Assembly (NCBI RefSeq): GCF_910596095.1
Contig: NC_056546.1
Location: 14,513,425 to 14,577,424 of the forward strand
Source: Thunnus maccoyii
Taxonomy: Eukaryota > Chordata > Actinopteri > Scombriformes > Scombridae
Direction: 5' to 3'
DNA: 64,000 nt
Shown: one piece after another, positions 20,190 to 64,000 of the stretch
Layout: each line of letters opens with the position of its first letter
Numbering within the stretch: the first letter of the stretch is position 1
Position numbers and translations under genes: made by a program
Notes under the pieces: model-generated
What the model was told of the DNA's origin: nothing
Seen by the model: the letters and a program-made list of their open reading frames with translations, nothing else
The model's database searches: none

Positions 20190-21420
20190 GTCGCCACCAT
20201 GGGGTACGTCTCAAGTCCATGGATGCTCAAGTCTCTTATTTTATGGCTCCTCGCTCCTCGCCTGAACCGGAAGTTGTTCCCGATGCGCCATTTTGACGAG
20301 CGTCCCAAGTCTCTTATTTTGCGCGGAGTGAGGAGCGAGGAAACATAAGAGCAGCCTTCACGGAAGTCTTTTACCAGCCGACACGCCCCCTTATTGGATA
20401 TCAGTTATTGATTGGACGCTGCACCTGATCTGACTGATCTGATACATCATTGCAGTTTCATACCGAAGTGGAGACAGATTATAGATTTAGTTTAAATGTA
20501 TCACTCGCAAGTTTTATGCTTTACTTGTTTTCTGATTCATCATATAGTTAAAATCAATTAATTGTCGACCTGATCAACAAAAGAACCATTAATAAATTTC
20601 TTCATGTATTAGTAAGATTTTTCTTTTCATGATCTATTATTTCCTCCATTAAACTGTTTCTTGCTGACAGACAGACTCTTCCTGACTTTAATTTCATCTA
20701 TAACAGTTAAACACATTTATATTTTACATCATTTGTCGTCATTTCCATTCAGTCACATGTGAGGCTGAAAATTCCGGAGCGTCGGATTTGATATGAGTTA
20801 CATAATTTCCATTTTCCCTGAAACATTTAGCCAAATACATATTTTCCGGTGTTCAGAAGAAATGATCATATTCTGGGTAATTGAATAATGAATTCACTAT
20901 CAGGATTATCACAAGATACAGATACAAATAATCGATAATCGAGTATAAACGCATTCCGCGAGTAGAAATGGTTCCTGTGCCTCTGAGCAGGACACAGTAT
21001 AATGCAGAATGCAGGTTTTTATTTAGGTGTTTGTTAAACAGGTAACAGGCTGCAGAAAGGAAACAGCTGCTCTAGCGGTAATAACTGTGAACCTTTATTA
21101 GTATTAACACAGTGCACATGTGTGCAGACACAAACTCCATCAGAAGTTTCTACAGCTGCTAAAGCCGACTGACAGCTGATCCAGCTGTGATCAGCTGTCA
21201 CCGTCATCAGAAACGGACGTCGCTTCACATGACGCTTCAGAGGAGAGGACGTCTCATGTCTCTTAACACAAATTTCCTCGTTTCCTCTCTCCTCGCTTGG
21301 TTTCCTTGCGTCTCTCCTTGCATCCACGGCGGGAGGGACTAAGACGCAAGAAAAGGACGCAAGTGAGGGAAACGTGGATGCAATTTAAGAGACTTGGGAT
21401 GCACCCATGGATGTATCATG
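20190..21420. mobile_element. Putative non-autonomous inverted-repeat element
   Basis: The left edge (about 20213-20240) reads CCATGGATGC then TCAAGTCTCTTA. The right edge (about 21382-21412) carries the reverse complement with small differences: TAAGAGACTTGGGATGC, then ACCCATGG. A second CCCAAGTCTCTTATTTT occurs inside the left arm at 20305. Both sides are rich in CCTCGCTCCTCG/GAGGAGCGAGG-type sequence. No transposase frame is present. Related inverted blocks extend further out (GGCAGCCAGTATGGCACTT on the left; AAGTGCCATAACTTCCTGCC on the right), so the true ends and any target-site duplication are uncertain. The receptor tandem unit starts inside its right arm. Confidence 0.45.
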
Positions 21421-22411
21421 CAGGGCTGCCACCATTTGTGGCACCCGCAACAGAAAGTGTCATCGAAAGTGCCATAACTTCCTGCCACAGTCTGTCGGGT
21501 GTGGTTGTCAGAAAAGGTTAAGGGTCATATATTTTTCTGTTTACTGAAGGGAGGATAGTCTAAATTTGAGGGGAAAGCAGGGAGAGTCTTTAAGCTTATT
21601 CTCATCTCAGATTTAGACTATACTTCACTGCTATTTTATCACAATATTCTATTGTGATATTAATTTTGAAAAGCAGAAATATATCATATGCAGAAGACAA
21701 CAATGCTGTCTCTATATTAGGGCACTGTTTCCCTCTTCAAAATCAATTTATCACTAGGACCAATATGTCAGTTTTGTGAAAGAAGAATACATGTGGATCT
21801 TTATAATTATTAGTGAGTGAATGCTTGTAATTGCTACACAAAGCGCATAATTTCTCATCCTGCAGCAAATCCCATTTTCACTTAATTCTGCATCATAACA
21901 AAAAATAGAACTGCAGTAAAATGACATATAAAATTTACCTTTGATATAATAAAGATACTTGAATATAAATCTAGTCTTTCGTGAGCTGAGTTGCTTTGTT
22001 TTGATGTTCACCTAACATGGAGATTATGCTCAGGATAGTAGGCTATACAAATAAATAGAGTGAATGTGCCACAGGGAACTTAGAGGTTTACTCGTCATAA
22101 TACACCATTATCTGTCTTTTCCTTTCTTTCTTAAACTTAATTGATCGAAATAAACTGAAAAAATGCCCATTTATTTGTGTAGATTAGAAAGAAAGTTTTG
22201 AAGGAAAAAAAATCTTTATATATACATATATATTATTATTAAAATTACATATATAATTAAAAAAAACTTTTTAACAAAAAAGGAATAGGTTTTAGTAACT
22301 CATTGTGTCACTATAAATGAAGTAAATAAAACTCATGGAATAATAAACTAATTTTTTTTTTATAATCACTAAACCTGTTACTAGTAGATTTACTGCAGGA
22401 ACTGCTTGAAT

Positions 22412-22419
22412 GAGGAAGT
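22412..22419 (+). promoter_or_regulatory. Conserved ETS/PU.1-like site upstream of each receptor gene
   Basis: GAGGAAGT lies 66-73 bases before the receptor start codon. It is kept in all six units (30303, 38094, 46377, 54206 and 61999 are the other starts). GAGGAAGT fits the PU.1 core found in myeloid and B-cell promoters. The motif is short, and the flanking sequence is also conserved among these recent copies, so function is inferred from position and family. Confidence 0.4.
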
Positions 22420-22484
22420 AACCCAGGTAGAGTCACCCACTGTAATGTTGAAAGTGCTCATTCACTCACAACGCTGAAGCAGAC

Positions 22485-25400
22485 ATGAGTTTTATTCCTC
22501 ACCTAATACTGGCTGGACTCATTGGTAAGTCAGCTAAGATTCTAATATGAATGCTATGCATAAATGATAGTCAAGTTTGTAATTAAAAAATATTGTTGGT
22601 ACTGATATATGTATTGCTGTTGAGTGATAAAATTTGAGTCTTACATTTAAAGTGACAACTAGCCACTAATTTTAAATTTTTAATATTGTGTTTTAGTGGA
22701 ATTCATGATACTAACCTGTAACTGATATTGATATATACAATGTATTTGAGGGCATCACTACAAGATAAATGTCTGTTGTTGTTTTGGCAGGAATTCACAG
22801 TAAAATTATTACAGTGAGTCGAGTTTCAGTTAAGGCTGGAGGCTCCATCTCTATCCCATGTCTCTATGACCAGTACTACAGAAACCATGTGAAATACTTG
22901 TGTCAAGGATATAAATGGCATTCGTGTCATATAGTAGTTGACACAAACCAACGACAAAGTAGTTCAGGAAAGTTTTCAATCTCTGATGACACAAACCAAA
23001 GAATCTTCACTGTGACTATTAATAATATAACGGATAAGGACACTGATTTCTGGTGTGGTGTGAAGATTGTGTGGGGGAAAGATGTCGGACAGTATTTTCA
23101 GCAGTCAGTGACCACAGGTAAAATGCCTTAAATGTTTTAAACACATTTTAAGTCCTTTCTGTGAACAATTTGGTGGGGAAGAAAACTAAGAATGTGTCTA
23201 ATTTTGAATTATCTTTTTGAAGGTATGTCAAATCTGTACATGGACCAACAAGAAATTACCGCATTTGAAGGAGGAAGTGTGACTATCAACTGTCACTATA
23301 AATACTCAGCAGAAAGAAAGTGGTGCAGACTGGGCCGCACCTGTGTGACAAATCGGTTTGGATCAATAGATGAAACAGCAGTGACCATCAATGCCAGTGT
23401 CTCCAATGATTTCACTGTGACTATGAGTGAACTGAGGACAGAGAGCAGTGGCTGGTACTGGTGTGCCGCAGGAGACTTACAGATGCCAGTGCACGTAACT
23501 GTTAATGAATTACCCTCAACTACAATGAGCCCCAGTACAGCAAGTAAGATTCAAACCATTTTCTATTCTCATAAATTAGTGACCAGTAAGTGGACGCAAC
23601 AAAAGTGACAAAAATGAAACCCTGGTATATTATTAATAATAATATTATTATTAAAATTTAACTTGTACATCTGGGAGTTACAGTATTATAATCCATAATA
23701 TACAGTATCATCAAAATACCGTGATACAATTCTTGCATTAACATGGCTTTTTACATGAATTTACTTTGACTTCACAGGGACACTTTCTACCACTCACCAG
23801 CATTCCACCTTGCTCATGAGTGTTGAACCATGTACTGCCCAGCCCACAAACACCACCATAACTGGGGCTGGTGGAGAGAGCTTGCAAGATGAACACAAGA
23901 GGTTACTACTCTTTACAACTTCAATGCATTTAAATCTGATTTACAACCTGGGTTTGTGCAAAAACATTTGCCCCTTTATTCTTGATGAAATGTAGGCTAC
24001 CTCTGCATTTACCTTCCAGGCCCACTACAATGACGATTCTCATCATCACCCTGGTCTTACAGCTGTTAGTTGTTCTCACTGCGTTTTTTGGATGGAGGAT
24101 GATAAGATGCAGTAAGTCTGTTGTAAGCTAATGCAAACTGAGGAATGAAATATCTGTTTCTGTAAAATAATTTCCTCAGAAATGTATGTGTTTGTTATAG
24201 ATCAGACCAAACCTCGGACGTCTGACATCACAGCGGTAAGTATAGTCATATATTTCCCTTATTATGTTTGCTAATAAGAAATTTGGATTGGTCACACAAC
24301 ACAGAAAGTAAACAGCATTTAAGGAACTTGACCATGCAAGTGTAACTGTACAATATACCTTATTTAACTACATTAACTGTTTGTTGGCTATAATTTCCTT
24401 GATTTACATCAGCATGGTAATTCTGTGAGTTCTGTAAACAGTTATACTATTTAAACCAGAACATAACCTGTCCGGGCCTGTGGATATTACAAACCTGTCT
24501 AATACTAGCTAAATACATCAAAATGGAAGAGCTGGAAAATCATGATATTTTAAGGGAATTTTTAGACAACATAAAATAATAATAAATGGCATTGTCCTGC
24601 AAGTTAGCTCATTCTTAGAGGTGAAAACCCAGGGCAAAAATGTCACTGGGTTTCAAATTACTGTAAGTACTAGCTGCTACCCAATGCTGTGAGTATCTGA
24701 ACATCTGGAGACGACCCTGATGAGTATGTGATCTTTCCTCCTCAGGATTATGACAGCCAGACAGTAAGAGGCCACCGCTTAGACAGATTTTAGCAAGTCA
24801 CTCAGACTAACTGTAAAACTTATACAAAATCTGTGACATGTCAGATTCTGTGACATTAGAGTGTCAACAATGGAAAAAAATATTGATGCATTGGAGGTGG
24901 CGGACTCCATCACTGCTATCGAAATGTGTGACCCTAACTAAATATTATGAGATCACCAATTGTGCTAACAGCTACGAAAATAGGTGACCTATGTACATCC
25001 TGTGGAGTCACCATTTTAGGTAGCAATCACAATATAATACGTGACCCTGGCAAAAACGTTTGCAGTGGCAATTAAGCCAACTGAGCATGATCAAGTCAGA
25101 AAGTCCAATTAAAACAAAAGAATCACTCACCAACAGTCCATCTGAAAGTGAATTTGTTAGTTTGTCATGTTGAGTCAGACTAAGTTGGACCAAAAGCTGT
25201 GTCGACCAGGCTTCCAAAATTGACCAAATTTTCATCCCAATCCCCCTCACACACTCGCTTTAAAGAAAGAATTTTTCAAGTCTGTCTGAAAACAAGAGTC
25301 ATACTACGTAAAGGTGTCCATATGAACATTGAAACAGGTTTTGCTTGCTTTAATGTTTTTTTTATTTAAAAGATTTTAAAATTTAAAAGATCCCATCCTA

Positions 25401-26832
25401 ATGTGCTTCCAATTTAAGTGATGGAGGACAAAGTCAAAGGATTGTTTTGTGCAAATATGTGTTTAAAAGTTTGTATGAAGCTAATTTGAAGCTTCAGCAG
25501 ACTTAACTTGAGAAAATCAGTCAAATCAAATGTAAACTTTCAAAGTTACAGTCTTTTTAGTAGCTACTGTGGACGGATAATAAGAAAAAGAGGTAATTTG
25601 GCACTAAAAAGACAGTAACTTTAAAAGATACCCACTTGATGTGAATCATTTGGTTGGCTGAAGCTTAATATTAGCCTCAGATAAACTTTTAAATACATTG
25701 TTGCATTACATTGAAAGTGTATTTGAGTAGGAAGATCTTTCAATGTCCAATATGAAAGGGAGGAATGATTAAAAGAAAAAACTGTTTGAATGTTCATATG
25801 GTGCCATATGTTTATATGGTGGTACTGTTCTGTTCCTACAACCTTTGTGCTGATCTAAACAGCAGTTTGACACACCATCCCCCAAGTGTTGTAGGAGTAA
25901 GTAGGTGTGCAAAGAACGTTGTGAACTTCACAACTTTCTAAAGGTATGAACTTTATGTCGAATGCTCTTATGTGTGAATGCTCCTTACAAGCAAATAATT
26001 GTGCAGTTAGACAGGAGAAAGCAACTCATTGTAAGATGGCATATGATGAGATTGATGCTACATTTCAAATTCGTCCACCGTAGGTCTCACAAACTGGGAG
26101 TGATCCTGACGTGCTCTATGCCACCGTTGTTCATGTGGTCAGGAAGGTAAACCAGACAAAAAAATAATATTTTTTTATCACAGTATAATTTGCCCACATT
26201 TTATTTGTCCGCCTTCATTTTTTCCCCTGAAATTTTATCACTTTGACCTTGTATTTTGTCCAGCAGGACCAGACACCCAAAGACAGTGTGACATACAGTA
26301 CTATTAATATAAGGGATGGTGCGAAGCAAATGGTATGTGATTTATTTTAAACTCATATAAGCCTCTCAATCATGGAAGATTTAAAATGCCTAAATTAAAA
26401 CAAATCAAAGATAGAAATAAAGTGACATGCAATGTGTCAAAATTAAATGAAAAACATATGTTGAAAGGACAATTATTTAGCTTTTTCAGCCAATACTACA
26501 TGCAAAGCACTGTCACTGAAGCTCCCCTGCACCTCCTCATGATAATGCATATACACAAATGCATACATAAAAGGAAATACATCTAACAATGTGTGTTTTA
26601 TTTCACTTTGTTTCTTTGGTTAAATTGTTTTAATTTAAGAATTTTAAACCTCCCACAGTTAATACTTAAACTATCTGTTAATAAGGCAAATTAATTTCTG
26701 TTGTGTTTTTCATCATTAGGTCATAATTATTCAGCATTCTGTGCTTTTTTTTCTCATTAGACTGAACCAGAAGATGGAGTTGTGATCTACAGCACAGTGG
26801 GTCAACACTCAAATAGAATGAAAAAGTTCTAA
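22485..26832 (+). CDS. CD300/pIgR-like (CMRF35-like) inhibitory receptor, copy 1, intact
   Basis: Exons: 22485-22524, 22791-23117, 23223-23543, 23778-23901, 24020-24111, 24201-24235, 24746-24763, 26084-26146, 26264-26332 and 26761-26832 (1161 nt, 386 aa). Residues 1-16 are a short signal peptide. Ig domain 1 (14-122) has C37-C102 plus the extra C51-C59 pair in CQGYKWHSC, the CD300/pIgR signature. Ig domain 2 (123-229) has C146-C203 plus C157-C163. A Thr-rich stalk (230-270) follows, then a transmembrane segment at about 276-297 with no charged residue. The tail carries ITIM-like motifs at Y331 (VLYATV), Y351 (VTYSTI) and Y373 (VIYSTV). By family knowledge this is a surface receptor of leukocytes recruiting SHP phosphatases. 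The ligand is unknown. N92 (NIT) and N179 (NAS) are possible glycosylation sites. The exon 4 donor (GTTACT) is weak but preserved in every copy. Confidence 0.86.
25130..25810 (+). repeat. Interspersed repeat in intron 7 (copy A of the unit), with hairpin
   Basis: This segment is similar to 26,985-27,640 in the same unit. Shared blocks include GTTGGACC, AAAATTGACCAAAT, TAATGTGCTTCCA, TTGTTTTGTGCAAA and GTGTTTAAAAGTTT. Its last part matches the repeat at 19,676-20,002. It contains 20-base inverted arms at 25542-25561 and 25603-25622 (one mismatch). Units 2-5 carry the same insert at about 33,020, 40,815, 49,140 and 56,930. Confidence 0.65.
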
Positions 26833-26984
26833 TGAGAAGAAAAGCTGGGAGGACAATAATCCTGCAAGTATGGCAACATTGATGAGGTCATTCTGATGTG
26901 TCCTGCATTTTATTAGTTGTATCTCAGTTCACTTTGATAAATTAGTCCTGCAGGCACAGGCATATTTCATGATAAAGATGTGAT

Positions 26985-27640
26985 GTGGTGAATTTGTCTG
27001 TATGTCATGTTGAGCAAGAGAAAGAATTGGACCACAAGCAGTGTGGACCACAGGCCTCTAAAATTGACCAAATGAAGGAATTGACCTTGTGGCCAATTTA
27101 CTCCATTGTGAAATTTCTCCAAAAATGTAAAGAAGAATTTTGAAGTGGCTTGAAGAAGTCTGTCTTAAAACAATAGTCAGTTGTCAGGAGCCTTAATCAT
27201 TCCTCCTGTTTATACTGGCTGTAAGAAGATCCTAATGTGCTTCCAGTGTAGGTGATGGGGGACAAAATCCAAGGACCTTGTTTTGTGCAAAAATGTGTTT
27301 AAAAGTTTATATGCAGTTAATGCTAATTTGAAGCTGAATTAGTCAAATCAAATGTAATCTTCCAAAGTTACAGTTTTTTTGTGTAAAATTCCTTCTTTAT
27401 GTTTCTCCAGACAGATCTGAATCATTTGCATGGCTGAAGCTTCATATTATCCTCAGACAAACTTTTAATACATTTTTGCAGGGAAGGATGACCATCATTT
27501 ACATTGAAAGTGCATTAGAGAGAGATCTTTTAATGTCCGATATGAACAGGAGGAATGATTAAAAGAAGAAAAACCTGTTTGAATGTCCGTTTGGGTACCT
27601 GACTATTGTTTAAAGATGGACTTAAAAAATCGATTTTCTA
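26985..27640 (+). repeat. Interspersed repeat in the receptor 3' flank (copy B of the unit)
   Basis: Second member of the same repeat family within unit 1, about 150 bases after the receptor stop codon, so it probably forms part of the 3'UTR. It lacks the central hairpin seen in copy A but extends further right, through GAACAGGAGGAATGATTA to the GACTATTGTTTAAAGATGG block. Equivalent copies lie at about 34,730, 43,040, 50,865 and 58,650. Confidence 0.6.
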
Positions 27641-27807
27641 ATGTCATCTAGTAGTTGATCCAGTAGTACAACCTCAGGCTCTGCTCGGGGTGTGGTGTAA
27701 TATTAGGCACAAACAAGATATGGAAGGTTCAATCACTTTGTGTTTTGATCATAGACTGTACATTTTTTTTTTTTGTTTTGATTCTTATTATGCTTCATTA
27801 CTGTGCA

Positions 27808-27962
27808 AATAAAACTGTTTTTTTAAAAACATGCATCTCCATAGCTATTAATTTTATCTAAAGCATTTAGTTGATATTTAGTTTGTTTGTTTTTTTGCTT
27901 GTGATTTCTTTTCATTGTTGTAAAGGACTTTGTCACTCAGATTTAAAAAATCTTCTAATAAA
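27808..27962 (+). terminator. Receptor poly(A) signals (two candidates)
   Basis: AATAAA occurs at 27808-27813 and 27957-27962, about 1.0 and 1.1 kb after the copy 1 stop. Both hexamers are kept in the later full units; the second lies at 35705, 44014, 51820 and 59613. The mRNA 3' end is probably here, which places the exon-like segment at 28741 beyond the normal transcript end. Confidence 0.55.
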
Positions 27963-28046
27963 GTTTAACTTACAATGTACAATCATGTAGCTTGTCATTA
28001 TTTTCTTCATCAACAAACTCGCTACAGCCTCTGAAAGACAGTAATT

Positions 28047-28289
28047 TCACCCGCAGATGCCGGCATCCTCGGGGAAGAGGAAGAGGTTAAACCACAGTGA
28101 CAGACAAGTCTTGTCTCTTGTTACAACTACTGTGCTGCTCTGCACAGCACTATCACATACCTTCCATAAAGTGTTGTCAAGTAGAGTAAAAATAGACTTT
28201 TTTAGACTCCTGTGACTTGGGTTATGTCCCCGGATCAAGTCTAGTTGGGGACTTTTATTGCATTTCTCTACTGGCTGTAAAAAAGGCAT
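28047..28289 (-). other. Conserved 80-codon open frame, unknown, possibly not coding
   Basis: A minus-strand frame starting MPFLQPVE and ending DAGICG is open in all five full units (35795-36067, 44104-44346, 51910-52152 and 59703-59945), with only a few substitutions. I recognise no family, signal peptide or motif. Non-coding spacer around it is just as conserved, so an open frame is weak evidence. It could be a captured exon or repeat fragment. Confidence 0.2.
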
Positions 28290-28740
28290 ACATTCTTTTT
28301 TTCACCTAAGCCTCAACTGGAAACACTATACATATATATGTATATCTCACATTCTGTAAAACTCCAGACCAGGATTCAGTATTCTGTATTACAGATACAT
28401 ACACTCCATAAAACCAAGCATCTGCAGCGCAAAGAGAATAGTCCAGAAATATTCAAATTATGCAACAATTTGTGGATTTGATAGGAGAAAGCAAATAATT
28501 TGAAAATAACTGGTCATATTCTAACATAATCAATCAAGAGTTGGTTGAGTGGTTTTAAGGTAGAAACAACTTTTGTCAGATATGCACAATTGTGTGTCAT
28601 AGGCACACATGACTGCTGTGCATGAACATACACACACAAAGAACTTAATTCTGGAAGCTGCTTTAATGGATTAGTATTTTCTCATTTAACTCGCCAAAAG
28701 CAGGATTTCTATCATATACATTTTTTCTTCTTTTAAACAG

Positions 28741-28815
28741 ATAGTTTACATGTTACCTGAAGAGAATGATCAGGAGAGCAGGAGACAATTTAACCAACAA
28801 AATACACTTTGGTAG
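28741..28815 (+). other. Exon-like segment downstream of the receptor (possible alternative cytoplasmic exon)
   Basis: A strong pyrimidine tract and TTTTAAACAG are followed by a 25-codon in-phase frame, IVYMLPEENDQESRRQF to a TAG stop. It includes a tyrosine and an acidic/polar stretch. It would join in phase 0 to receptor exon 7, 8 or 9. All five full units keep the acceptor, frame and stop (36492-36566, 44798-44872, 52604-52678 and 60397-60471), with M/I at the fourth residue. It lies past the poly(A) signals, so use would need read-through. It may be an orphaned ancestral terminal exon. Confidence 0.35.
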
Positions 28816-30084
28816 CCCCTCTATGCACCTTAAGAACAGTAGTTAACATTATCGCTAAACTCTGTGGTTTCAACTGCTTATCTCTTCCACTGGCACTATC
28901 TAGATTTGATGGTGTTTTCTGAGTGTAATGCAATTATGAGTTGGTGTATGATGGAGACAAAGTAAACATTTCAAATGAACTTCCACCATTTAAAAATATA
29001 TTTTAACAATAGCTGAAACATCCAGTGAGCTATGTCTGTACACTATGTTAAACCTCAGGTTCTACAGGCCTGTCCTCTCAGAGAGTTGATTTGTCCAAGA
29101 CAACTCATGAGTTTTCTGCATTCAATAAGATGGTGCATTTATGAGAGACCACAGCAAAGCTCATACAGTAACCTATATTTAAACCATCTCAAAACTGTCC
29201 CCATTCTTCAATCACTGAAGCACTGAAACACTATGAAGCATCACTGTTTCACAGCATGTTATACAGTCAAAATGTTCATATGTGCTGAGCAACTCTTGGT
29301 ATTGCATTTGTGTGGATGTATTCAATCTGAAACCATGATGAAACAGTTTCTCTGTTGGTCATTTTGTTCAGTCAAAGTCTCTATTCTATAAACTGATCAC
29401 TTTTACTTTTTGGATGCAATTTAAGAGACTTGGGATGCACCCATGGATGTATCATGCAGGGCTGCCACCATTTGTGGCGCAACAGAAAGTGTCATTTGGG
29501 GGGAAAGCAGGGAGAGTCTTTAAGCTTATTCTCATCTCAGATTTAGACTATACTTCACTGCTATTTTATCACAGTATTCTATTGTGATATTAATTTTGAA
29601 AAGCAGAAATATATCATATGCAGAAGACAACAATCCAGTCTCTATATTAGGGCGCTATTTCCCTCTTCAAAATCAATTTATCACTAGGACCAATATGTCA
29701 GTTTACATGTGGATCTTTATAATTATTAGTGAGTGAATGCATGTAATTGGCACACAAAGCGCATAATTTCTCATCCTGCAGCAAATCCCATTTTCACTTA
29801 ATTCTGCATCATAACAAAAAATAGAACTGCAGTAAAATGACATATAAAATTTACCTTTGATATAATAAAGATACTTGAATATAAATCTAGTCTTTCGTGA
29901 GCTGAGTTGCTTTGTTTTGATGTTCACCTAACATGGAGATTATGCTCAGGATAGTAGGCTATACAAATAAATAGAGTGAATGTGCCACAGGGAGATTAGA
30001 GGTTTACTCGTCATAATACACCATTATCTGTCTTTTCATTTCTTTCTTAAACTTAATTGATTGAAATAAACTGAAAAAATGCCC

Positions 30085-30091
<7 letters not shown>

Positions 30092-30131
<40 letters not shown>

Positions 30132-30135
30132 TATA
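30092..30135. repeat. TA dinucleotide microsatellite, unit 2 only
   Basis: About 44 bases of nearly pure TA repeat, interrupted once by C. It replaces the AGATTAGAAAGAAAG-type sequence found at this place in units 1 and 3-6. It lies upstream of receptor copy 2. Confidence 0.85.
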
Positions 30136-30375
30136 AAATTACATATATAATTTAAAAAACTTTTTAACAAAAAAGGAATAGGTCTTAGTTACTCATTGTG
30201 TCACTATAAATGAAGTAAATAAAACTCATGGAATAATAAACTAATTTTTTTTATAGCCACTAAAACTGTTACTAGTAGATTTACTGCAGGAACTGCTTGA
30301 ATGAGGAAGTAACCCAGGTAGAGTCACCCGCTGTAATGTTGAAAGTGCTCATTCACTCACAACGCTGAAGCAGAC

Positions 30376-33300
30376 ATGAGTTTTATTCCTCACCTAATAC
30401 TGGCTGGACTCATTGGTAAGTCAGCTAAGATTCTAATATGAATGCTATGCATAAATGATAGTCAAGTTTGTAATTAAAAAAAATATTGTTGGTACTGATA
30501 TATGTATTGCTGTTGAGTGATAAAATCTGAGGCTTACATTTAAAATGACAACTAGCCACTAATTTTAAATTTTAATATTGTGTTTTAATAAAATTCATGA
30601 TACTAGCCTGTAACTGATATTGATATATACAATGCATTTGAAGGCATCACTACAAGATAAATGTCTGTTGTTGTTTTGGCAGGAATTCACTGTAAAATTA
30701 TTACAGTGAGTAAAGTTTCAGTTAAGGCTGGAGGCTCCATCTCTATCCCATGTCTCTATGACCAGTACTACAGAAACCATGTGAAATACTTGTGTCAAGG
30801 ATATTACTGGAATTCGTGTCATATAGTAGTTAAAACAAACCAACGAAAAAGTAGTTCAGGAAAGTTTTCAATCTCTGATGACACAAACCAAAGAATCTTC
30901 ACTGTGACTATTAATGATATAACGCATAAGGACACTTATTTCTGGTGTGGTGTGGAGATTGTACCAGAGGCAGATGATGGACAGTATTTTCAGCTGTCAG
31001 TGACCACAGGTAAAATGCTTTAAATGTTTTAAACACATTTTAAATCCTTTCTGTGAACAATTTGGTGGGGAAGAAAACTAAGAATGTGTCTAATTTTGAA
31101 TTATCTTTTTGAAGGTACGTCAAATCTGTATGTGGGCAAACAAAAAATTACAGCATCTAAAAGAGGTAGTGTGACTATCAAATGTCCATATAAATACTCA
31201 GCAAAAAGAAAGTGGTGCAGACTGGGCCGCACCTGTGTGACAAATCAGTCTGGATCAATAGATGGAACAGCAGTGACCATTGATGCCAGTGTCTCTAATG
31301 ATTTCACTGTGACTATGAGTGAACTGAGGACAGAGAGCAGCGGCTGGTACTGGTGTGCTGCAGGAGACTTACAGATGCCAGTGCATGTAACTGTTAATGA
31401 ATTACCCTCAACTACAATGAGCCCCAGTACAGCAAGTAAGATTCAAATCATTTTCTATTCTCATAAATTAGTGACCAGTAAGTGGACGCAACAAAAGTGA
31501 CAAAAATGAAACCCTGGTATATTATTAATAATAATATTATTATTAAAATTTAACTTGTACATCTGGGAGTTACAGTATTATAATCCATAATATGCAGTAT
31601 CATCAAAATACCGTGATACAATTCTTGCATTAACATGGCTTTTTACATGAATTTACTTTGACTTCACAGGGACACTTTCTGTTGAACCATGTGCTGCCCA
31701 GCCTACAAACACCGCCATAACCGGGGCTGGTGGAGAGAGCTTGCAAGATGAACACAAGAGGTTACTACTCTTTACAACTTCAATGCATTTAAATCTGATT
31801 TACAACCTGGGTTTGTGCAAAAACATTTGCCCCTTTATTCTTGATGAAATGTAGGCTACCTCTGTATTTACCTTCCAGGCCCACTACAATGACGATTCTC
31901 ATCACCATCCTGGTCTTACTGCTGTTAGTTGTTCTCACTGCATTTTTTGGATGGAGGATGATAAGATGCAGTAAGTCTGTTGTAAGCTAATGCAAACTGA
32001 GGAATGAAATATCTGTTTCTGTAAAATAATTTCCTCAGAAATGTATGTGTTTGTTATAGATAAGACCAAACCTTGGACGTCTGACATCACAGCGGTAAGT
32101 ATAGTCATGTATTTCCCTTATTATGTTTGCTGATAAGAAATTTGGATTGGTCACACAACACAGAAAGTAAACAGCATTTAAGGAACTTGACCATGCAAGT
32201 GTAACTGTACAATATACCTTATTTAACTACATTAACTGTTTGTTGGCTATAATTTCCTTGATTTACATCAGCATGGTAATTCTGTGAGTTCTGTAAACAG
32301 TTGTACTATTTAAACCAGAACATAACCTGTCCGGGCCTGTGGATATTACAAACCTGTCTAATACCAGCTAAATACATCAAAATGGAAGAGCTGGAAAATC
32401 ATGATATTTTAAGGGAATTAGACAACATAAAATAATAATAAATGGCATTGTCCTGCAAGTTAGCTCATTCTTAGAGGTGAAAACCCAGGGCAAAAATGTC
32501 ACTGGGTTTCAAATTACTGTAAGTACTAGCTGCTATCCAATACTGTGAGTATCTGAACACCTGGAGACGACCCTGATGAGTATGTGATCTTTCCTCCTCA
32601 GGATTATGACAGCCAGACAGTAAGAGGCCACCGTTTAGACAGATTTTAGCAAGTCACTCAGACTAACTGTAAAACTTATACAAAATCTGTGACATTTCAG
32701 ATTCTGTGACATAAGAGGGTCAACAATGGAAAAAATATTGATGCATTGGAGGTGGCGGGCTCCATCACTGCTATCGAAATGTGTGACCCTAACTAAATAT
32801 TATGAGATCACCAATTGTGCTAACAGCTATGAAAATATGTGACCTATGTACATCCTGTGGAGTCACCATTTTAGGTAGCAATCACAATAAAATACGTGAC
32901 CCTGGCAAAAACGTTTGCAGTGGCAATTAAGCCAACTGAGCATGATCAAGTCAGAAAGTCCAATTAAAACAAAAGAATCACTCACCAACAGTCCATCATA
33001 GTCCATCCGGCATAGGGCTCACAAACTGAAAGTGAATTTGTTAGTTTGTCATGTTGAGTCAGAGCAAGTTGGACCAAAAGCTGTGTCGACCAGGCTTCCA
33101 AAATTGACCAAATTTTCATCCCAATCCCCCTCACACACTCGCTTTAAAGAAAGAATTTTTCAAGTCTGTCTGAAAACAAGAGTCATACTACGTAAAGGTG
33201 TCCATATGAACATTGAAACAGGTTTTGCTTGCTTTAATCTTTTTTTTATTTAAAAGATTTTAAAATTTAAAAGATCCCATCCTAATGTGCTTCCAATTTA

Positions 33301-53274: not shown

Positions 53275-56200
53275 GGATGCAATTTAAGAGACTTGGGATG
53301 CACCCATGGATGTATCATGCAGGGCTGCCACCATTTGTGGCACCCGCAACAGAAAGTGTCATTTGGGGGGAAAGCAGGGAGAGTCTTTAAGCTTATTCTC
53401 ATCTCAGATTTAGACTATACTTCACTGCTATTTTATCACAATATTCTATTGTGATATTAATTTTGAAAAGCAGAAATATATCATATGCAGAAGACAACAA
53501 TCCTGTCTCTATATTAGGGCGCTATTTCTCTCTTCAAAATCAATTTATCACTAGGACCAATATGTCAGTTTTGTGAAAGAAGAATACATATGGATCTTTA
53601 TAATTATTAGTGAGTGAATGCATGTAATTGCCACACAAAGCGCATCATTTCTCATCCTGCAGCAAATCCCATTTTCACTTAATTCTGCATCATAACAAAA
53701 AATAGAACTGCAGTAAAATGACATATAAAATTTACCTATGATATAATAAAGATACGTGAATATAAATCTAGTCTTTCGTGAGCTGAGTTGCTTTGTTTTG
53801 ATGTTCACCTAACATGGAGATTATGCGCAGGATAGTAGGCTATACAAATAAATAGAGTGAATGTGCCACAGGGAGATTAGAGGTTTACTCGTCATAATAC
53901 ACCATTATCTGTCTTTTCCTTTCTTTCTTCAACTTAATTGATTGAAATAAACTGAAAAAATGCCCATTTATTTGTGTAGATTAGAAAGAAAGTTTTGAAG
54001 GAAAAATAATCTGTATATATACATATATATTATTATTAAAATTACATATATAATTTAAAAAACTTTTTAACAAAAAATGAATAGGTCTTAGTTACTCATT
54101 GTGTGACTATAAATGAAGTACATAAAACTCATGGAATAATAAACTAATTTTTTTTACAGCCACTAAAACTGTTACTAGTAGATTTACTGCAGGAACTGCT
54201 TGAATGAGGAAGTAACCCAGGTAGAGTCACCCGCTGTAATGTTGAAAGTGCTCATTCACTCACAACACTGAAGCAGACATGAGTTTTATTCCTCACCTAA
54301 TACTGGCTGGACTCATTGGTAAGTCAGCTAAGATTCTAATATGAATGCTATGCATAAATGATAGTCAAGTTTGTAATTAAAACAATATTGTTGGTACTGA
54401 TATATGTATTGCTGTTGAGTGATAAAATTTGAGTCTTACATTTAAAGTGACAACTAGCCACTAATTTTAAATTTTTAATATTGTGTTTTAATAAAATTCA
54501 TGATACTAACCTGTAACTGATATTCATACATACAATGCATTTGAAGGCATCACTACAAGATAAATGTCTGTTGTTGTTTTGGCAGGAATTCACTGTAAAA
54601 TTATTACAGTGAGTCGAGTTTCAGTTAAGGCTGGAGGCTCCATCTCTATCCCATGTCTCTATGACCAGTACTACAGAAACCATGTGAAACACTTGTGTCA
54701 AGGATATAAATGGCAGTCGTGTCATATAGTAGTTGACACAAACCAACGAAAAAGTAGTTCAGGAAAGTTTTCAATCTCTGATGATACAAACCAAAGAATC
54801 TTCACTGTGACTATTAATGAAATAACGCATAAGGACACTGATTTCTGGTGTGTTGTGGAGAAATGGGGGGAAGATGTCGGACAGTATTTTCAGCTGTCAG
54901 TGACCACAGGTAAAATGCCTTAAATGTTTTAAACACATTTTAAATCCTTTCTGTGAACAATTTGGTGGGGAAGAAAACTAAGAATGTGTCTAATTTTGAA
55001 TTATCTTTTTGAAGGTATGTCAAATCTGTACGTGGACCAACAAGAAATTACAGCATCTGAAGGAGGTAGTGTGACTATCAACTGTCACTATAAATACTCA
55101 GCAGAAAGAAAGTGGTGCAGACTGGGCCGCACCTGTGTGACAAATCAGTCTGGATCAATAGATGGAACAGCAGTGACCATCGACGCCAGTGTCTCTAATG
55201 ATTTCACTGTGACCATGAGTAAACTGAGGACAGAGAGCAGCGGCTGGTACTGGTGTGCTGCAGGAGACTTACAGATGCCATTGCACGTAACTGTTAATGA
55301 ATTACCCACAGCAAGTAAGATTCAAACCATTTTCTATTCTCATAAATTAGTGACCAGTAAGTGGACGCAACAAAAGTGACAAAAATGAAACCCTGATATA
55401 TCATTAATAATAATATTATTATTAAAATTTAACTTGTACATCTGGGAGTTACAGTATTATAATCCATAATATACAGTATCATCAAAATACGGTGATACAA
55501 TTCTTGCATTAACATGGCTTTTTACATGAATTTACTTTGACTTCACAGGGACACTTTCTACCACTCACCAGCATTCCTCCTTGCTCATGAGTGTTGAACC
55601 ATGTACTGCCCAGCCCACAAACACCACCATAACCGGGGCTGGTGGAGAGAGCTTGCAAGATGAACACAAGAGGTTACTACTCTTTACAACTTCAATGTAT
55701 TTAAATCTGATTTACAACCTGGATTTGTACAAAAACATTTGCCCCTTTATTCTTGATGAAATGTAGGCTACCTTCCAGACCCACTACAATGACGATTCTC
55801 ATCACCATCCTGGTCTTACAGCTGTTAGTTGTTCTCACTGTGTTTTTTGGATGGAGGATGATAAGATGCAGTAAGTCTGTTGCAAGCTAATGCAAACTGA
55901 GGAATGAAATATCTGTTTCTGTAAAATAACTTCCTCAGAAATGTATGTGTTTGTTATAGATAAGACCAAACCTCGGACGTCTGACATCACAGCGGTAAGT
56001 ATAGTCATGTATTTCCCTTATTATGTTTGCTGATAAGAAATTTGGATTGGTCACACAACACAGAAAGTAAACAGCATTTAAGGAACTTGACCATGCAAGT
56101 GTAACTGTACAATATACCTTATTTAACTACATTAACTGTTTGTTGGCTATAATTTCCTTGATTTACATCAGCATGGTAATTCTGTGAGTTCTGTAAACAG

Positions 56201-59200
56201 TTGTACTATTTAAACCAGAACATTACCTGTCCGGGCCTGTGGATATTACAAACCTGTCTAATACCAGCTAAATACATCAAAATGGAGGAGCTGGAAAATC
56301 ATGATATTTTAAGGGAATTTTTAGACGACATAAAATAATAATAAATGGCGTTGTCCTGCAAGTTAGCTCATTCTTAGAGGCGAAAACCCAGGGCAAAAAT
56401 GTCACTGGGTTTCAAATTACTGTAAGTACTAGCTGCTACCCAATGCTGTGAGTATCTGAACATCTGGAGACGACCCTGATGAGTATGTGATCTTTCCTCC
56501 TCAGGATTATGACAGCCAGACAGTAAGAGGCCACCGTTTAGACAGATTTTAGCAAGTCACTCAGACTAACTGTAAAACTTAAACAAAATCTGTGACATGT
56601 CAGATTCTGTGACATTAGAGGGTCAGCAATGGAAAAAATATTGATGCACTGGAGGTGGCAGGCTCCATCACTGCTATCGAAATGTGTGACCCTAACTAAA
56701 TATTATGAGATCACCAATTGTGCTAACAGCTATGAAAATATGTGACCTATGTACATCCTGTGGAGTCACCATTTTAGGTAGCAATCACAATATAATACGT
56801 GACCCTGGCAAAAACTTTTGCAGTGGCAATTAAGCCAACTTAGCATGATCAAGTCAGAAAGTCCAATTAAAACAAAAGAATCACTCACCAACAGTCGATC
56901 ATAGTCCATCCGGCATAGGGCTCACAGACTGAAAGTGAATTTGTTAGTTTGTCATGTTGAGTCAGAGGAGTTGGACCAAAAGCTGTGTTAACCAGGCTTC
57001 CAAAATTGACCAAATTTTCATCCCAATCCCCCTCACACACTCGCTTTAAAGAAAGAATTTTTCAAGTCTGTCTGAAAACAAGAGTCATACTACGTAAAGG
57101 TGTCCATATGAACATTGAAACAGGTTTTGCTTGCTTTAATCTTTTTTTTATTTAAAAGATTTTAAAATTTAATAGATCCCATCCCAATGTGCTTCCAATT
57201 TAAGTGATGGAGGACAAAGTCAAAGGATTGTTTTGTGCAAATATGTGTTTAAAAGTTTGTATGAAGCTAATTTGAAGCTTCAGCAGACTTAACTTGAGCA
57301 AATTAGTCAAATCAAATGTAAACTTTCAAAGTTACAGTCTTTTTAGTAGCTACTGTGGACGGATAATAAGAAAAAGAGGTAATTTGGCACTAAAAAGACA
57401 GTAACTTTAAAAGATACCCATTTGATGTGAATCATTTGGTTGGCTGAAGCTTAATATTAGCCTCAGATAAACTTTTAAATACATTGTTGCATTACATTGA
57501 AAGTGCACCATCCCCCAAGTGTTGTAGGAGTAAATAGGTGTGCAAAGAACGTTGTGAACTTCACAACTTCAGTTCACAACTTTCTAAAGGTGTGAACTTT
57601 ATGTTGAATGCTCTTATGTGTGAATGCTCCTTACAAGCAAATAATTGTGCAGTTAGACAGGAGAAAGCAACTCATTGTAAGATAGCATATGATGAGATTG
57701 ATGCTACATTTCAAATTTGTCCATCACAGGTCTCACAAACTGGGAGTGATCCTGACATGCGCTATACCACTGTTGTTGTATATGTGGCCTGGAAGGTAAA
57801 CCAGACAAAAAAAAAATATTTTTTTAACACAGTATAATTTGCCCACATTTTATTTGTCCGCCTTCATTTTTTCCCCTGAAATTTTATCACTTTGACCTTG
57901 TATTTTGTCCAGCAGGACCAGACACCCAAAGACAGTGTGAAATACAGTACTATTAATATAAGGGATGGTGCGAAGCAAATGGTATGTGATTTATTTTAAA
58001 CTCATATAAGCCTCTCAATCATGGAAGATTTAAAATGCCTAAATTAAAACAAATCAAAGATAGAAATAAAGTGACATGCAATGTGTCAAAATTAAATGAA
58101 AAACATATGTTGAAAGGACAATTATTTAGCTTTTTCAGCCAATACTACATGCAAAGCACTGTCACTGAAGCTCCCCTGCACCTCCTCATGATAATGCATA
58201 TACACAAATGCATACATAAAAGGAAATACATCTAACAATGTGTGTTTTATTTCACTTTGTTTCTTTGGTTAAATTGTTTTAATTTAAGAATTTTAAACCT
58301 CCCACAGTTAATACTTAAACTATCTGTTAATAAGGCAAATGAATTTCTGTGTTTTTTTCTGTTGTGTTTTTTATCATTAGATCATAATTATTCAGCATTC
58401 TGTGCTTTTTTTTCTCATTAGACTGAACCAGAAGATGGAGGTGTGATCTACAGCACAGTGGGTCAACACTCAAATAGAATGAAAAAGTTCTAATGAGAAG
58501 AAAAGCTGGGAGGACAATAATCCTGCAAGTATGGCAACATTGATGAGGTCATTCTGATGTGTCCTGCATTTTATTAGTTGTATCTCAGTTCACTTGGATA
58601 AATCAGTCCTGCAGGCACAGGCATATTTCATGATAAAGATGTGATGTGGTGAATTTGTCTGTATGTCATGTTGAGCAAGAGAAAGAGTTGGACCACAAGC
58701 AGTGTGGACCACAGGCCTCTAAAATTGACCAAATGAAGGAATTGACCTTGTGGCCAACTTACTCCATTGTGAAACTTCTCCAAAAATGTAAAGAAGAATT
58801 TTGAAGTGGCTTGAAGAAGTCTGTCTTAAAACAATAGTCAGTTGTCAGGAGCCATCATTCCTCCTGTTTATACTGGCTGTAAGAAGATCCTAATGTGCTT
58901 CCAGTGTAGGTGATGGGGGACAAAATCCAAGGACCTTGTTTTGTGCAAAAATGTCTTTAAAAGTTTATATGCAGTTAATGCTAATTTGAAGCTGAATTAG
59001 TCAAATCAAATGTAATCTTCCAAAGTTACAGTTTTTTTGTGTAAAATTCCTTCTTTATGTTTCTCCAGACAGATCTGAATCATTTGCATGGCTGAAGCTT
59101 CATATTAGCCTCAGACAAACTTTTAATACATTTTTGCAGGGAAGGAGGACCATCATTTACATTGAAAGCGCATTAGAGAGAGATCTTTTAATGTCCGATA

Positions 59201-61067
59201 TGAACAGGAGGAATGATTAAAAGAAGAAAAACCTGTTTGAATGTCCATTTGGGTACCCGACTATTGTTTAAAGATGGACTTAAAAAATTGATTTTCTAAT
59301 GTCATCTAGTAGTTGATCCAGTAGTACAACCTCAGGCTCTGCTCGGGGTGTGGTGTAATATTAGGCACAAACAAGATATGGAAGGTTCAATCACTTTGTG
59401 TTTTGATCATAGACTGTACTTTTTTTTTTTTTGTTTTGATTCTTATTATGCTTCATTACTGTGCAAATAAAACTGATTTTTTTAAAAACATGCATCTCCA
59501 TAGCTATTAATTTGATCTAAAGCATTTCGTTGATATTTAGTTTGTTTTTTTTGCTTGTGATTTCTTTTCATTGTTGTAAAGGACTTTGTCACTCAGATTT
59601 AAAAAATCTTCTAATAAAGTTTAACTTACAATGTACAATCATGTAGCTTGTCATTATTTGCTTCATCAACAAACTCGCTACAGCCTCTGAAAGACAGTAA
59701 TTTCACCCGCAGATGCGGGCATCCTCGGGGAAGAGGAAGAGGTTAAACCACAGTGACAGACAAGTCTTTTCTCTTGTTACAACTACTGTGCTGCTCTGCA
59801 CAGCACTATCACATACCTTCCATAAAGTGTTGTCAAGTAGAGTAAAAATAGACTTTTTTAGACTCCTGTGACTTGGGTTATGTCCCCGGATCAAGTCCAG
59901 TTGGGGACTTTTATTGCATCTCTCTACTGGCTGTAAAAAAGGCATACATTCTGTTTTTCACCTAAGCCTCAACTGGAAACACTATACATATATATGTATA
60001 TCTCACATTCTGTAAAACTCCAGACCAGGATTCAGTATTCTGTATTACAGATACATACACTCCATAACACCAAGCATCTGCAGCGCAAAGAGAATAGTCC
60101 AGAAATATTCAAATTATGCAACAATTTGTGGATTTGATAGGAGAAAGCAAATAATTTGAACATAACTGGTCATATTCTAACATAATCAATCAAGAGTTGG
60201 TTGAGTGGTTTTAAGGTAGAAACAGCTTTTGTCAGATATGCACAATTGTGTGTCATAGGCACACATGACTGCTGTGCATGAACATACACACACAAAGAAC
60301 TTAATTCTGGAAGCTGCTTTAATGGATTAGTATTTTCTCATTTAACTTGCCAAAAACAGGACTTCTATCATATACATTTTTTCTTCTTTTAAACAGATAG
60401 TTTACATGTTACCTGAAGAGAATGATCAGGAGAGCAGGAGACAATTTAACCAACAAAATACACTTTGGTAGCCCCTCTATGCACCTTAAGAACAGTAGTT
60501 AACATTATCACTAAACTCTGTGGTTTCAACTGCTTATCTCTTCCACTGGCACTATCTAGATTTTATGGTGTTTTCTGAGTGTAATGCAATTATGAGTTGG
60601 TGTATGATGGAGACAAAGTAAACATTTCAAATGAACTTCCACCATTTAAAAATATATTTTAACAATAGCTGAAACATCCAGTGAGCTATGTCTGTACACT
60701 ATGTTAAACCTCAGGTTCTACAGGCCTGTCCTCTCAGAGAGTTGATTTGTCCAAGACAACTCGTGAGTTTTCTGCACTCAATAAGATGGTGCATTTATGA
60801 GAGACCACAGCAAAGCTCATACAGTAACCTATATTTAAACCATCTCAAAACTGTCCCCAGTCTTTGATCACTGAAGCACTGAAACACTATGAAGCATCAC
60901 TGTTTCACAGCATGTTATACAGTCAAAATATTCACATGTGCTGAGCAACTATTGGTATTGCATTTGTGTGGATGTATTCAATCTGAAACCATGATGAAAC
61001 AGTTTATCTGTTGGTCATTTTGTTCAGTCAAAGTCTATATTCTAAAAACTGATCACTTTTACTTTTT
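53275..61067 (+). repeat. Tandem unit 5 (7793 bp)
   Basis: Fifth unit. Its second half is nearly identical to that of unit 4 and its first half is nearly identical to that of unit 6. The intron between stalk and transmembrane exons is about 12 bases shorter than in units 1-4. The 3' spacer (58,494-61,067) is as in unit 4. Confidence 0.93.
54279..58493 (+). CDS. CD300/pIgR-like inhibitory receptor, copy 5, intact
   Basis: Exons: 54279-54318, 54586-54909, 55015-55314, 55549-55672, 55779-55870, 55960-55994, 56505-56522, 57730-57795, 57913-57981 and 58422-58493 (1140 nt, 379 aa). The Ig1 loop is CQGYKWQSC. Ig1 is one codon shorter late in the domain (VEKWGEDV) and has FWCVV. Exon 3 lacks 21 bases (7 Ser/Thr-rich stalk residues), in frame. 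Tail motifs are MRYTTV, VKYSTI and VIYSTV. Exon 5 starts with A instead of G (AGA arginine at the junction, synonymous). No disabling change is seen. Confidence 0.85.
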
Positions 61068-64000
61068 GGATGCAATTTAAGAGACTTGGGATGCACCCAT
61101 GGATGTATCATGCAGGGCTGCCACCATTTGTGGCACCCGCAACAGAAAGTGTCATTTGGGGGGAAAGCAGGGAGAGTCTTTAAGCTTATTCTCATCTCAG
61201 ATTTAGACTATACTTCACTGCTATTTTATCACAATATTCTATTGTGATATTAATTTTGAAAAGCAGAAATATATCATATGCAGAAGACAACAATCCTGTC
61301 TCTATATTAGGGCGCTATTTCTCTCTTCAAAATCAATTTATCACTAGGACCAATATGTCAGTTTTGTGAAAGAAGAATACATATGGATCTTTATAATTAT
61401 TAGTGAGTGAATGCATGTAATTGCCACACAAAGCGCATCATTTCTCATCCTGCAGCAAATCCCATTTTCACTTAATTCTGCATCATAACAAAAAATAGAA
61501 CTGCAGTAAAATGACATATAAAATTTACCTATGATATAATAAAGATACGTGAATATAAATCTAGTCTTTCGTGAGCTGAGTTGCTTTGTTTTGATGTTCA
61601 CCTAACATGGAGATTATGCGCAGGATAGTAGGCTATACAAATAAATAGAGTGAATGTGCCACAGGGAGATTAGAGGTTTACTCGTCATAATACACCATTA
61701 TCTGTCTTTTCCTTTCTTTCTTCAACTTAATTGATTGAAATAAACTGAAAAAATGCCCATTTATTTGTGTAGATTAGAAAGAAAGTTTTGAAGGAAAAAT
61801 AATCTGTATATATACATATATATTATTATTAAAATTACATATATAATTTAAAAAACTTTTTAACAAAAAATGAATAGGTCTTAGTTACTCATTGTGTGAC
61901 TATAAATGAAGTACATAAAACTCATGGAATAATAAACTAATTTTTTTTACAGCCACTAAAACTGTTACTAGTAGATTTACTGCAGGAACTGCTTGAATGA
62001 GGAAGTAACCCAGGTAGAGTCACCCGCTGTAATGTTGAAAGTGCTCATTCACTCACAACACTGAAGCAGACATGAGTTTTATTCCTCACCTAATACTGGC
62101 TGGACTCATTGGTAAGTCAGCTAAGATTCTAATATGAATGCTATGCATAAATGATAGTCAAGTTTGTAATTAAAACAATATTGTTGGTACTGATATATGT
62201 ATTGCTGTTGAGTGATAAAATTTGAGTCTTACATTTAAAGTGACAACTAGCCACTAATTTTAAATTTTTAATATTGTGTTTTAATAAAATTCATGATACT
62301 AACCTGTAACTGATATTCATACATACAATGCATTTGAAGGCATCACTACAAGATAAATGTCTGTTGTTGTTTTGGCAGGAATTCACTGTAAAATTATTAC
62401 AGTGAGTCGAGTTTCAGTTAAGGCTGGAGGCTCCATCTCTATCCCATGTCTCTATGACCAGTACTACAGAAACCATGTGAAACACTTGTGTCAAGGATAT
62501 AAATGGCAGTCGTGTCATATAGTAGTTGACACAAACCAACGAAAAAGTAGTTCAGGAAAGTTTTCAATCTCTGATGATACAAACCAAAGAATCTTCACTG
62601 TGACTATTAATGAAATAACGCATAAGGACACTGATTTCTGGTGTGTTGTGGAGAAATGGGGGGAAGATGTCGGACAGTATTTTCAGCTGTCAGTGACCAC
62701 AGGTAAAATGCCTTAAATGTTTTAAACACATTTTAAATCCTTTCTGTGAACAATTTGGTGGGGAAGAAAACTAAGAATGTGTCTAATTTTGAATTATCTT
62801 TTTGAAGGTATGTCAAATCTGTACGTGGACCAACAAGAAATTACCGCATTTGAAGGAGGAAGTGTGACTATCAACTGTCACTATAAATACTCAGCAGAAA
62901 GAAAGTGGTGCAGACTGGGCCGCACCTGTGTGACAAATCAGTCTGGATCAATAGATGGAACAGCAGTGACCATCGACGCCAGTGTCTCTAATGATTTCAC
63001 TGTGACCATGAGTAAACTGAGGACAGAGAGCAGCGGCTGGTACTGGTGTGCTGCAGGAGACTTACAGATGCCATTGCACGTAACTGTTAATGAATTACCC
63101 ACAGCAAGTAAGATTCAAACCATTTTCTATTCTCATAAATTAGTGACCAGTAAGTGGACGCAACAAAAGTGACAAAAATGAAACCCTGATATATCATTAA
63201 TAATAATATTATTATTAAAATTTAACTTGTACATCTGGGAGTTACAGTATTATAATCCATAATATACAGTATCATCAAAATACGGTGATACAATTCTTGC
63301 ATTAACATGGCTTTTTACATGAATTTACTTTGACTTCACAGGGACACTTTCTACCACTCACCAGCATTCCTCCTTGCTCATGAGTGTTGAACCATGTACT
63401 GCCCAGCCCTCAAACACCACCATAACCGGGGCTGGTGGAGAGAGCTTGCAAGATGAACACAAGAGGTTACTACTCTTTACAACTTCAATGTATTTAAATC
63501 TGATTTACAACCTGGATTTGTACAAAAACATTTGCCCCTTTATTCTTGATGAAATGTAGGCTACCTTCCAGACCCACTACAATGACGATTCTCATCACCA
63601 TCCTGGTCTTACAGCTGTTAGTTGTTCTCACTGTGTTTTTTGGATGGAGGATGATAAGATGCAGTAAGTCTGTTGCAAGCTAATGCAAACTGAGGAATGA
63701 AATATCTGTTTCTGTAAAATAACTTCCTCAGAAATGTATGTGTTTGTTATAGATAAGACCAAACCTCGGACGTCTGACATCACAGCGGTAAGTATAGTCA
63801 TGTATTTCCCTTATTATGTTTGCTGATAAGAAATTTGGATTGGTCACACAACACAGAAAGTAAACAGCATTTAAGGAACTTGACCATGCAAGTGTAACTG
63901 TACAATATACCTTATTTAACTACATTAACTGTTTGTTGGCTATAATTTCCTTGATTTACATCAGCATGGTAATTCTGTGAGTTCTGTAAACAGTTGTACT
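61068..64000 (+). repeat. Tandem unit 6 (partial, at least 2933 bp)
   Basis: The sixth unit is cut by the window edge. It is almost base-for-base equal to unit 5 over the visible part, except for a short patch in receptor exon 3 and scattered single changes (for example CCCTCAAAC against CCCACAAAC near 63,409). Confidence 0.93.
62072..63787 (+). CDS. CD300/pIgR-like inhibitory receptor, copy 6, partial (3' exons outside the window)
   Basis: Visible exons: 62072-62111, 62379-62702, 62808-63107, 63342-63465, 63572-63663 and 63753-63787, matching exons 1-6 of copy 5 in length and phase. The encoded signal peptide, both Ig domains, stalk, transmembrane segment and first tail exon are open. It differs from copy 5 in exon 3 (ITAFEGG in place of ITASEGG) and in the stalk (SNTTITG for TNTTITG). 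Exon 7 would lie about 64,298 by unit spacing, beyond the window. The ITIM tail is therefore not seen here and is only expected. Confidence 0.83.

Follow-up and report, generated by a model that had tools for sequence, protein, structure and literature searches.

Location and extent of the array

The window analysed here, a 64,000-base stretch of Thunnus maccoyii DNA (C14:14513425-14577424, in a genome of 782 Mb in 54 contigs), carries from position 21376 on a tandem array of genes for predicted inhibitory receptors with two V-type immunoglobulin (Ig) domains and a cytoplasmic tail bearing immunoreceptor tyrosine-based inhibitory motifs (ITIMs). The repeats are direct, lie head to tail at a spacing of about 7.8 kb, and occur six times in the window. 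A blastn search with unit 1 brings the total to seven copies, six of which begin in the window and the seventh in the flanking contig, which also supplied the 3′ part of copy 6; the original prediction of at least six genes therefore holds for the window, the exact count being seven. Coordinates beyond 64000 (“window-frame”) number the flanking contig onward from window position 1. Units within the window measure 7751 to 8296 bases, unit 6 as completed by the flank 7790 and unit 7 8444. Their starts, placed by the blastn search with unit 1 and by comparison of the junctions, give the following features:

21376..29411, + strand, array unit 1 (8036 bases)
29412..37162, + strand, array unit 2 (7751 bases)
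37163..45458, + strand, array unit 3 (8296 bases, including an internal 522-base duplication)
45459..53274, + strand, array unit 4 (7816 bases)
53275..61067, + strand, array unit 5 (7793 bases; crossover hybrid)
61068..64000, + strand, array unit 6 (cut by the window end; runs on to window-frame 68857)
21376..21564, + strand, left-edge stretch of 189 bases, repeated at 96.8% where the array ends on the right (window-frame 77302-77490)

The left edge had been put at 21376 and is exact, since the copy 1 sequence upstream of this position matches no other copy. At all six inner junctions the first ~88 bases of the 189-base edge stretch are kept (84 aligned at the first junction) and ~100 are missing, a common truncation which suggests that every inner junction traces to one first duplication.

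Gene models

Exon models were made on copy 1 and then lifted onto the other copies. All ten exons are present in each copy, AG/GT ends are found at 63 of 63 introns, and the phases are identical in all seven; in the animal the transcripts would presumably be spliced at these junctions. The joined exons of copy 1 come to 1158 nt and encode 385 amino acid residues plus a stop, not the 386 first reported, which is the length of the copy 4 product. The frames of copies 1, 2, 4, and 5 are open in the window, as are those of copies 6 and 7 once the flank is added, while copy 3 contains a single in-frame TGA in exon 2. This agrees with the earlier count of four intact genes, one broken, and one cut, the last being copy 6, which leaves the window after exon 6 (63787).

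22485..22524, + strand, copy 1 exon 1, start codon and hydrophobic leader (signal peptide by eye)
22791..23117, + strand, copy 1 exon 2, Ig V domain 1 with CX7C extra cysteine pair (Pfam V-set 4.8e-07; pIgR 5f1s 1.2e-25)
23223..23543, + strand, copy 1 exon 3, Ig V domain 2 with CX5C extra cysteine pair (Pfam V-set 5.3e-08; pIgR 5f1s 3.3e-24)
23778..23901, + strand, copy 1 exon 4, stalk
24020..24111, + strand, copy 1 exon 5, membrane segment, hydrophobic core without charged residues
24201..24235, + strand, copy 1 exon 6, cytoplasmic
24746..24763, + strand, copy 1 exon 7, cytoplasmic (18 nt)
26084..26146, + strand, copy 1 exon 8, ITIM VLYATV
26267..26332, + strand, copy 1 exon 9, ITIM VTYSTI
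26761..26832, + strand, copy 1 exon 10, ITIM VIYSTV and stop
30376..34578, + strand, copy 2 exons 1-10, open, 375 aa
38167..42887, + strand, copy 3 exons 1-10, in-frame TGA in exon 2
42143..42205, + strand, copy 3 additional exon-8-like exon, VLYANV
42323..42388, + strand, copy 3 additional exon-9-like exon, VTYSTI
46450..50700, + strand, copy 4 exons 1-10, open, 386 aa
54279..58493, + strand, copy 5 exons 1-10, open, 378 aa; 5′ part copy 6-like, 3′ part copy 4-like
62072..63787, + strand, copy 6 exons 1-6 (exons 7-10 in the flank; open, 378 aa)

The description of one ten-exon gene per unit needs one amendment: in copies 3 and 7 exons 8 and 9 are each represented twice, the additional pair being bounded by AG and GT and of in-phase length. 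These extra pairs, at 42143-42388 in copy 3 and at window-frame 73454-74227 in copy 7, have their source in a 522-base internal duplication. Were both pairs spliced in, the tails of these two copies would possess five ITIM-like motifs rather than three.

Predicted proteins

The products consist of a hydrophobic leader, domain 1, domain 2, a stalk, a membrane segment whose core is uncharged, and a tail 84 or 85 residues long; the absence of charge from the hydrophobic core is as originally described. Two Ig exons are present in all seven copies, and Pfam calls V-set in 10 of the 10 Ig stretches scanned, one of them (31057-31497) lying exactly at the cut-off. An extra C-C′ cysteine pair had been proposed for both V domains. 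It is found in domain 2 of every copy (CX5C) and in domain 1 of six of the seven (CX7C), the domain 1 pair of copy 7 being broken. Structural models predicted from alignments of the copies in the window were poor, with mean predicted local distance difference test (pLDDT) scores of 47.3 and 56.2.

Under the strict pattern [SILV]xYxx[ILV], the three motifs attributed to each tail are found in copies 1, 2, 3, 6, and 7; copies 4 and 5 have two, the first motif there starting with M. Strict ITIMs occur in all seven tails, and only 0 to 35 of 5000 shuffles per tail matched the real count. The motifs are spread over three small phase-0 exons, and the Ig exons are in phase 1.

Divergence between copies

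Over whole units, copies 5 and 6 are the closest pair, differing by 0.92%, and copies 1 and 2 the most distant, at 2.81%. The variation peaks on the Ig exons: across the 1104 exon columns nucleotide diversity is 4.78%, versus 1.85% over the 5152 others, and it reaches 5.59% in exons 2 and 3 together and 7.07% in exon 8, the first ITIM exon. Only nine of 7072 circular shifts of the mask gave a value as high as that of exons 2 and 3, and each of these lay at most 6 bases from the true place.

The ratio of nonsynonymous to synonymous differences (pN/pS), from pairwise counts that pool non-independent pairs, is 1.14 overall; it stands at 1.58 in domain 1, 1.38 in exons 8-10, and 0.67 in domain 2. 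For domain 1 (pN 0.0685, pS 0.0432) the codon bootstrap is suggestive of positive selection without reaching significance, as the 95% interval of the difference runs from −0.005 to 0.053 and 5.1% of the 2000 resamples do not exceed zero. In domain 2 (pN 0.0539, pS 0.0810) there is no such signal. Within domain 1, with loop limits drawn by eye from the cysteines, nonsynonymous difference is 0.151 in the loops and 0.030 in the framework, and synonymous difference 0.126 and 0.013. Because synonymous change is also raised in the loops, the pattern can be explained by gene conversion or old variation as readily as by selection.

One portion of the unit shows no variation whatsoever. The end of copy 1 exon 9 and the adjoining part of intron 9 (26323-26664), together with the counterparts, form 342 columns that are invariant in all seven copies, 2.7 times the next longest such run in the unit (128). 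An 81-codon frame inside it is shared unchanged by five window copies and copy 7. The run may be a conversion tract or a constrained intron element.

A crossover hybrid

Copy 5 is a crossover hybrid, its 5′ part coming from copy 6 and its 3′ part from copy 4. In the aligned stretch, and in copy 1 positions, it differs from copy 6 at five sites up to 24867 and at many from 25058 on; compared with copy 4 there are many differing sites up to 24983, and thereafter only two. The exchange is thereby confined to 75 bases of intron 7:

56741..56816, + strand, crossover interval in copy 5

Unequal crossing over of copies 4 and 6 within intron 7 would give just the order observed. Crossovers of this kind rejoin ectodomains with tails. 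The 3′ part of copy 6 is itself nearest to copy 2 in seven of its last eight windows of 500 columns.

Relatives elsewhere in the genome

Searches of the fish's own genome, in which the match counts are lower bounds, place domain 1 at at least 72 sites at E≤10, including the seven copies, a diverged neighbour on C14, one gene each on C4 and C12, and clusters on C2, C3, C4, and C18. Domain 2, for which 22 of 22 candidates were scored, is found at at least 10 places at E≤0.001: two are exons of the C12 gene, one is the diverged neighbour, and the other seven are the array copies. Clusters of V domains of the pIgR/CD300 superfamily lie on C2 (31.47 and 32.09-32.13 Mb), C3 (32.86-33.06 Mb), and C4 (24.94 Mb); at the three loci checked, one on C4 and two on C2, the best PDB matches are pIgR and CD300.

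The diverged neighbour lies at C14:14595543 (L010:8531-9902 and L011:128-493). Its domain 1 is 65% identical, its layout is that of the array genes, and both Ig domains, a hydrophobic segment, and the motif VTYSTV lie in open frames, so that the gene is possibly intact. Since it carries these elements, the locus must be older than the seven copies. A search with its domain 2 returns all seven array copies, along with a weak match on C12 (E 0.007) and one on C11 (E 0.28). Beyond it, at C14 14599951 (near L011:2942), is a further domain 1 fragment.

Near the C12 gene are two reading frames that match DAD (4.1e-25 and 9.3e-17). The gene dad1 adjoins pIgR in T. bernacchii and zebrafish, according to PMC9321927. 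From the adjoining DAD exons we conclude that the C12 gene is pIgR and that the C14 array is something else; a single pIgR gene beside dad1 is what C12 presents and the array does not.

Family placement

Both domains have pIgR as their best PDB match (5f1s, then mammalian chains), followed by CD300 chains; we take 5f1s to be rainbow trout pIgR. Whole-chain scores favour chains with many domains, and single-domain scores were therefore used besides. The domain 2 profile scores 58.0 bits on domain 2 of 5f1s and 36.3 on the best CD300 chain. Two trees were built, both midpoint-rooted, subject to long-branch warnings, and composed of rows without named CD300, PIGRL, or NILT sequences. In the 42-row tree the array and pIgR second domains share one side of a branch supported at 100/99, and a branch at 95/87 separates the C2/C3 rows from array domain 1, the C4 gene, pIgR, and the domain 2 rows; support is weak (81/58) for a branch placing array domain 1 on the C2/C3 side, opposite C4 and pIgR. 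When the domain-2-type rows are left out (30 rows), a group supported at 88/82 unites the first domains of array and pIgR with the C4 gene, and the approximately unbiased (AU) test does not reject a clade made up of these two first domains only (p 0.361).

By domain 2 the array is, at the level of sequence, firmly pIgR-like. Domain 1 may go with either pIgR or CD300. The array also has the two V domains of teleost pIgR (the C12 gene and 5f1s) in the same order; it differs from pIgR in its position on C14, its several copies, and its ITIM exons, and in the CX5C spacing of domain 2, where 5f1s has CX7C in both domains. We read these genes as pIgR-like inhibitory receptors and not as CD300 proper. 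Three observations weigh against this. The best single PDB domain for the domain 1 profile is the CD300f structure 2nms (59.9 bits, versus 52.5 for domain 1 of 5f1s); a 97/95 branch of the 42-row tree, itself subject to the long-branch warning, places pIgR domain 1 with all domain-2-type rows and apart from array domain 1; and domain 2 of the C12 pIgR gene is interrupted by an intron (splice sites as read), whereas that of the array occupies a single exon.

Interpretation and alternative explanations

The array is probably a tandem family of inhibitory receptors of the pIgR-like (PIGRL) type that has expanded recently in a bony fish. The products would be type I membrane proteins whose two V-type domains, in the two-domain layout of pIgR, bind an extracellular ligand. 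With an uncharged membrane segment an adaptor chain would not be needed. Ligand binding would lead to phosphorylation of the ITIM tyrosines and recruitment of SHP-type phosphatases, damping activation of the cell, presumably a leukocyte. Unequal crossing over between units may have multiplied the copies, and a single exchange in intron 7 combined the ectodomain of one copy with the tail of another.

A zebrafish pIgR-like (PIGRL) multigene family was reportedly described by Kortum et al. in 2014. In PMC9321927 and PMC4384117, PIGRL is cited as a multigene family with pIgR-related V domains, separate from the single pIgR, and the latter source links zebrafish pIgR-like molecules to phospholipids. 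The array resembles PIGRL, which was compared by description, in having pIgR-related V domains, in being multigene, and in lying apart from the pIgR gene; inhibitory membrane forms also occur in PIGRL. By analogy with the zebrafish reports our first guess at the ligand would be a membrane phospholipid; our second would be fish immunoglobulin.

One alternative is that these are CD300/CMRF35-like receptors proper which gained a second Ig domain in fish. Array and CD300 share a V domain with the extra C-C′ cysteine pair, domain 1 scores best, by single domain, on CD300f, and inhibitory CD300 members likewise have ITIM tails and uncharged membrane segments. Mammalian CD300, however, has one Ig domain, whereas all seven array copies have two, and it is with pIgR that the second of these groups and scores by far the better. 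We therefore think this derivation unlikely, and of the CMRF35-like/PIGRL label first given to the array we retain inhibitory-type tandem receptors of the pIgR/CD300 superfamily with two V domains, the CD300 half being the weaker. It is harder still to equate the array with the novel immunoglobulin-like transcripts (NILTs) of salmonids and cyprinids, an identity that we consider most improbable. According to PMC3022915, salmonid NILTs have one or two V domains, include two-Ig forms with ITIMs, and lie in tight clusters, with Ig exons in phase 1 and ITIM exons in phase 0, the very phases of the array. The NILT ITIMs, however, are contained in one last exon, against three here, and their cysteine spacing is CX3C, or in two-Ig forms CX6C and CX7C, against CX7C and CX5C. 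The structure of NKp44, the nearest relative with which NILTs are compared, does not appear among the 26 rows listed for domain 1 at E≤0.001 and is weak for domain 2 (2.8e-05).

A different kind of explanation accepts the genes as real and regards part of the array, above all copy 5, as an assembly product of two haplotypes with unequal copy number. A false join would indeed yield a copy made of near-identical pieces of its neighbours, and in herring, according to PMC11088111, haplotypes differ in copy number at immune clusters. Against this, copy 5 is still five sites off copy 6 in its 5′ part and two sites off copy 4 in its 3′ part over the compared stretch. All pairs other than 5 and 6 differ by 1.57 to 2.81% over the whole unit, so the remaining copies are not haplotype doubles. 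We judge such an artefact improbable.

If the family of pIgR-like receptors is as we propose, it may further be modular, a suggestion that we offer tentatively and with more doubt than conviction. The Ig exons would diverge at about three times the non-exon rate, chiefly in the domain 1 loops, crossovers in intron 7 would swap ITIM tails, and internal duplication would add pairs of ITIM exons, so that the binding face and the number of ITIMs vary independently in a KIR-like manner; copy number would probably vary between individuals. Were this so, the position of the crossover would set the choice of ectodomain and tail in such families.

Earlier publications already describe tandem ITIM receptor families (NILT) as well as fish immune loci that change in copy number (herring CLM2). 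What is unusual in the array is the clarity of the crossover and the exon-focused divergence. It offers a clean recent case of fish multiplying and recombining inhibitory immune receptors, with the exchange in the hybrid placed to within 75 bases, and it ties an array of ITIM receptors to the lineage of pIgR rather than of CD300. The titles and abstract openings searched describe neither the array nor a polh-linked pIgR-like family, which is weak evidence of absence, most subscription papers lying outside that search.

Neighbouring genes and other features

The array lies on C14 between polh and a VDAC-like gene. To its left, Pfam matches zf_UBZ and IMS (polh) and two GTP_EFTU stretches, one of them below its cut-off (gtpbp2). 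These domains agree with the polh-gtpbp2 pair originally placed beside the array; the gene names themselves are presumptive. To the right, again by Pfam, come an exon matching Porin_3 (VDAC-like, 7.4e-21) and a gene of the intermediate-filament type (1.1e-63). An open frame at 954-1268 on the minus strand, for which Pfam gave no family at E≤0.01, may encode something akin to an SH3 domain of the MIA/otoraplin kind. In the gtpbp2 region, ARAGORN and Rfam both identify a tRNA-Leu with anticodon CAG at 8415-8500 on the minus strand.

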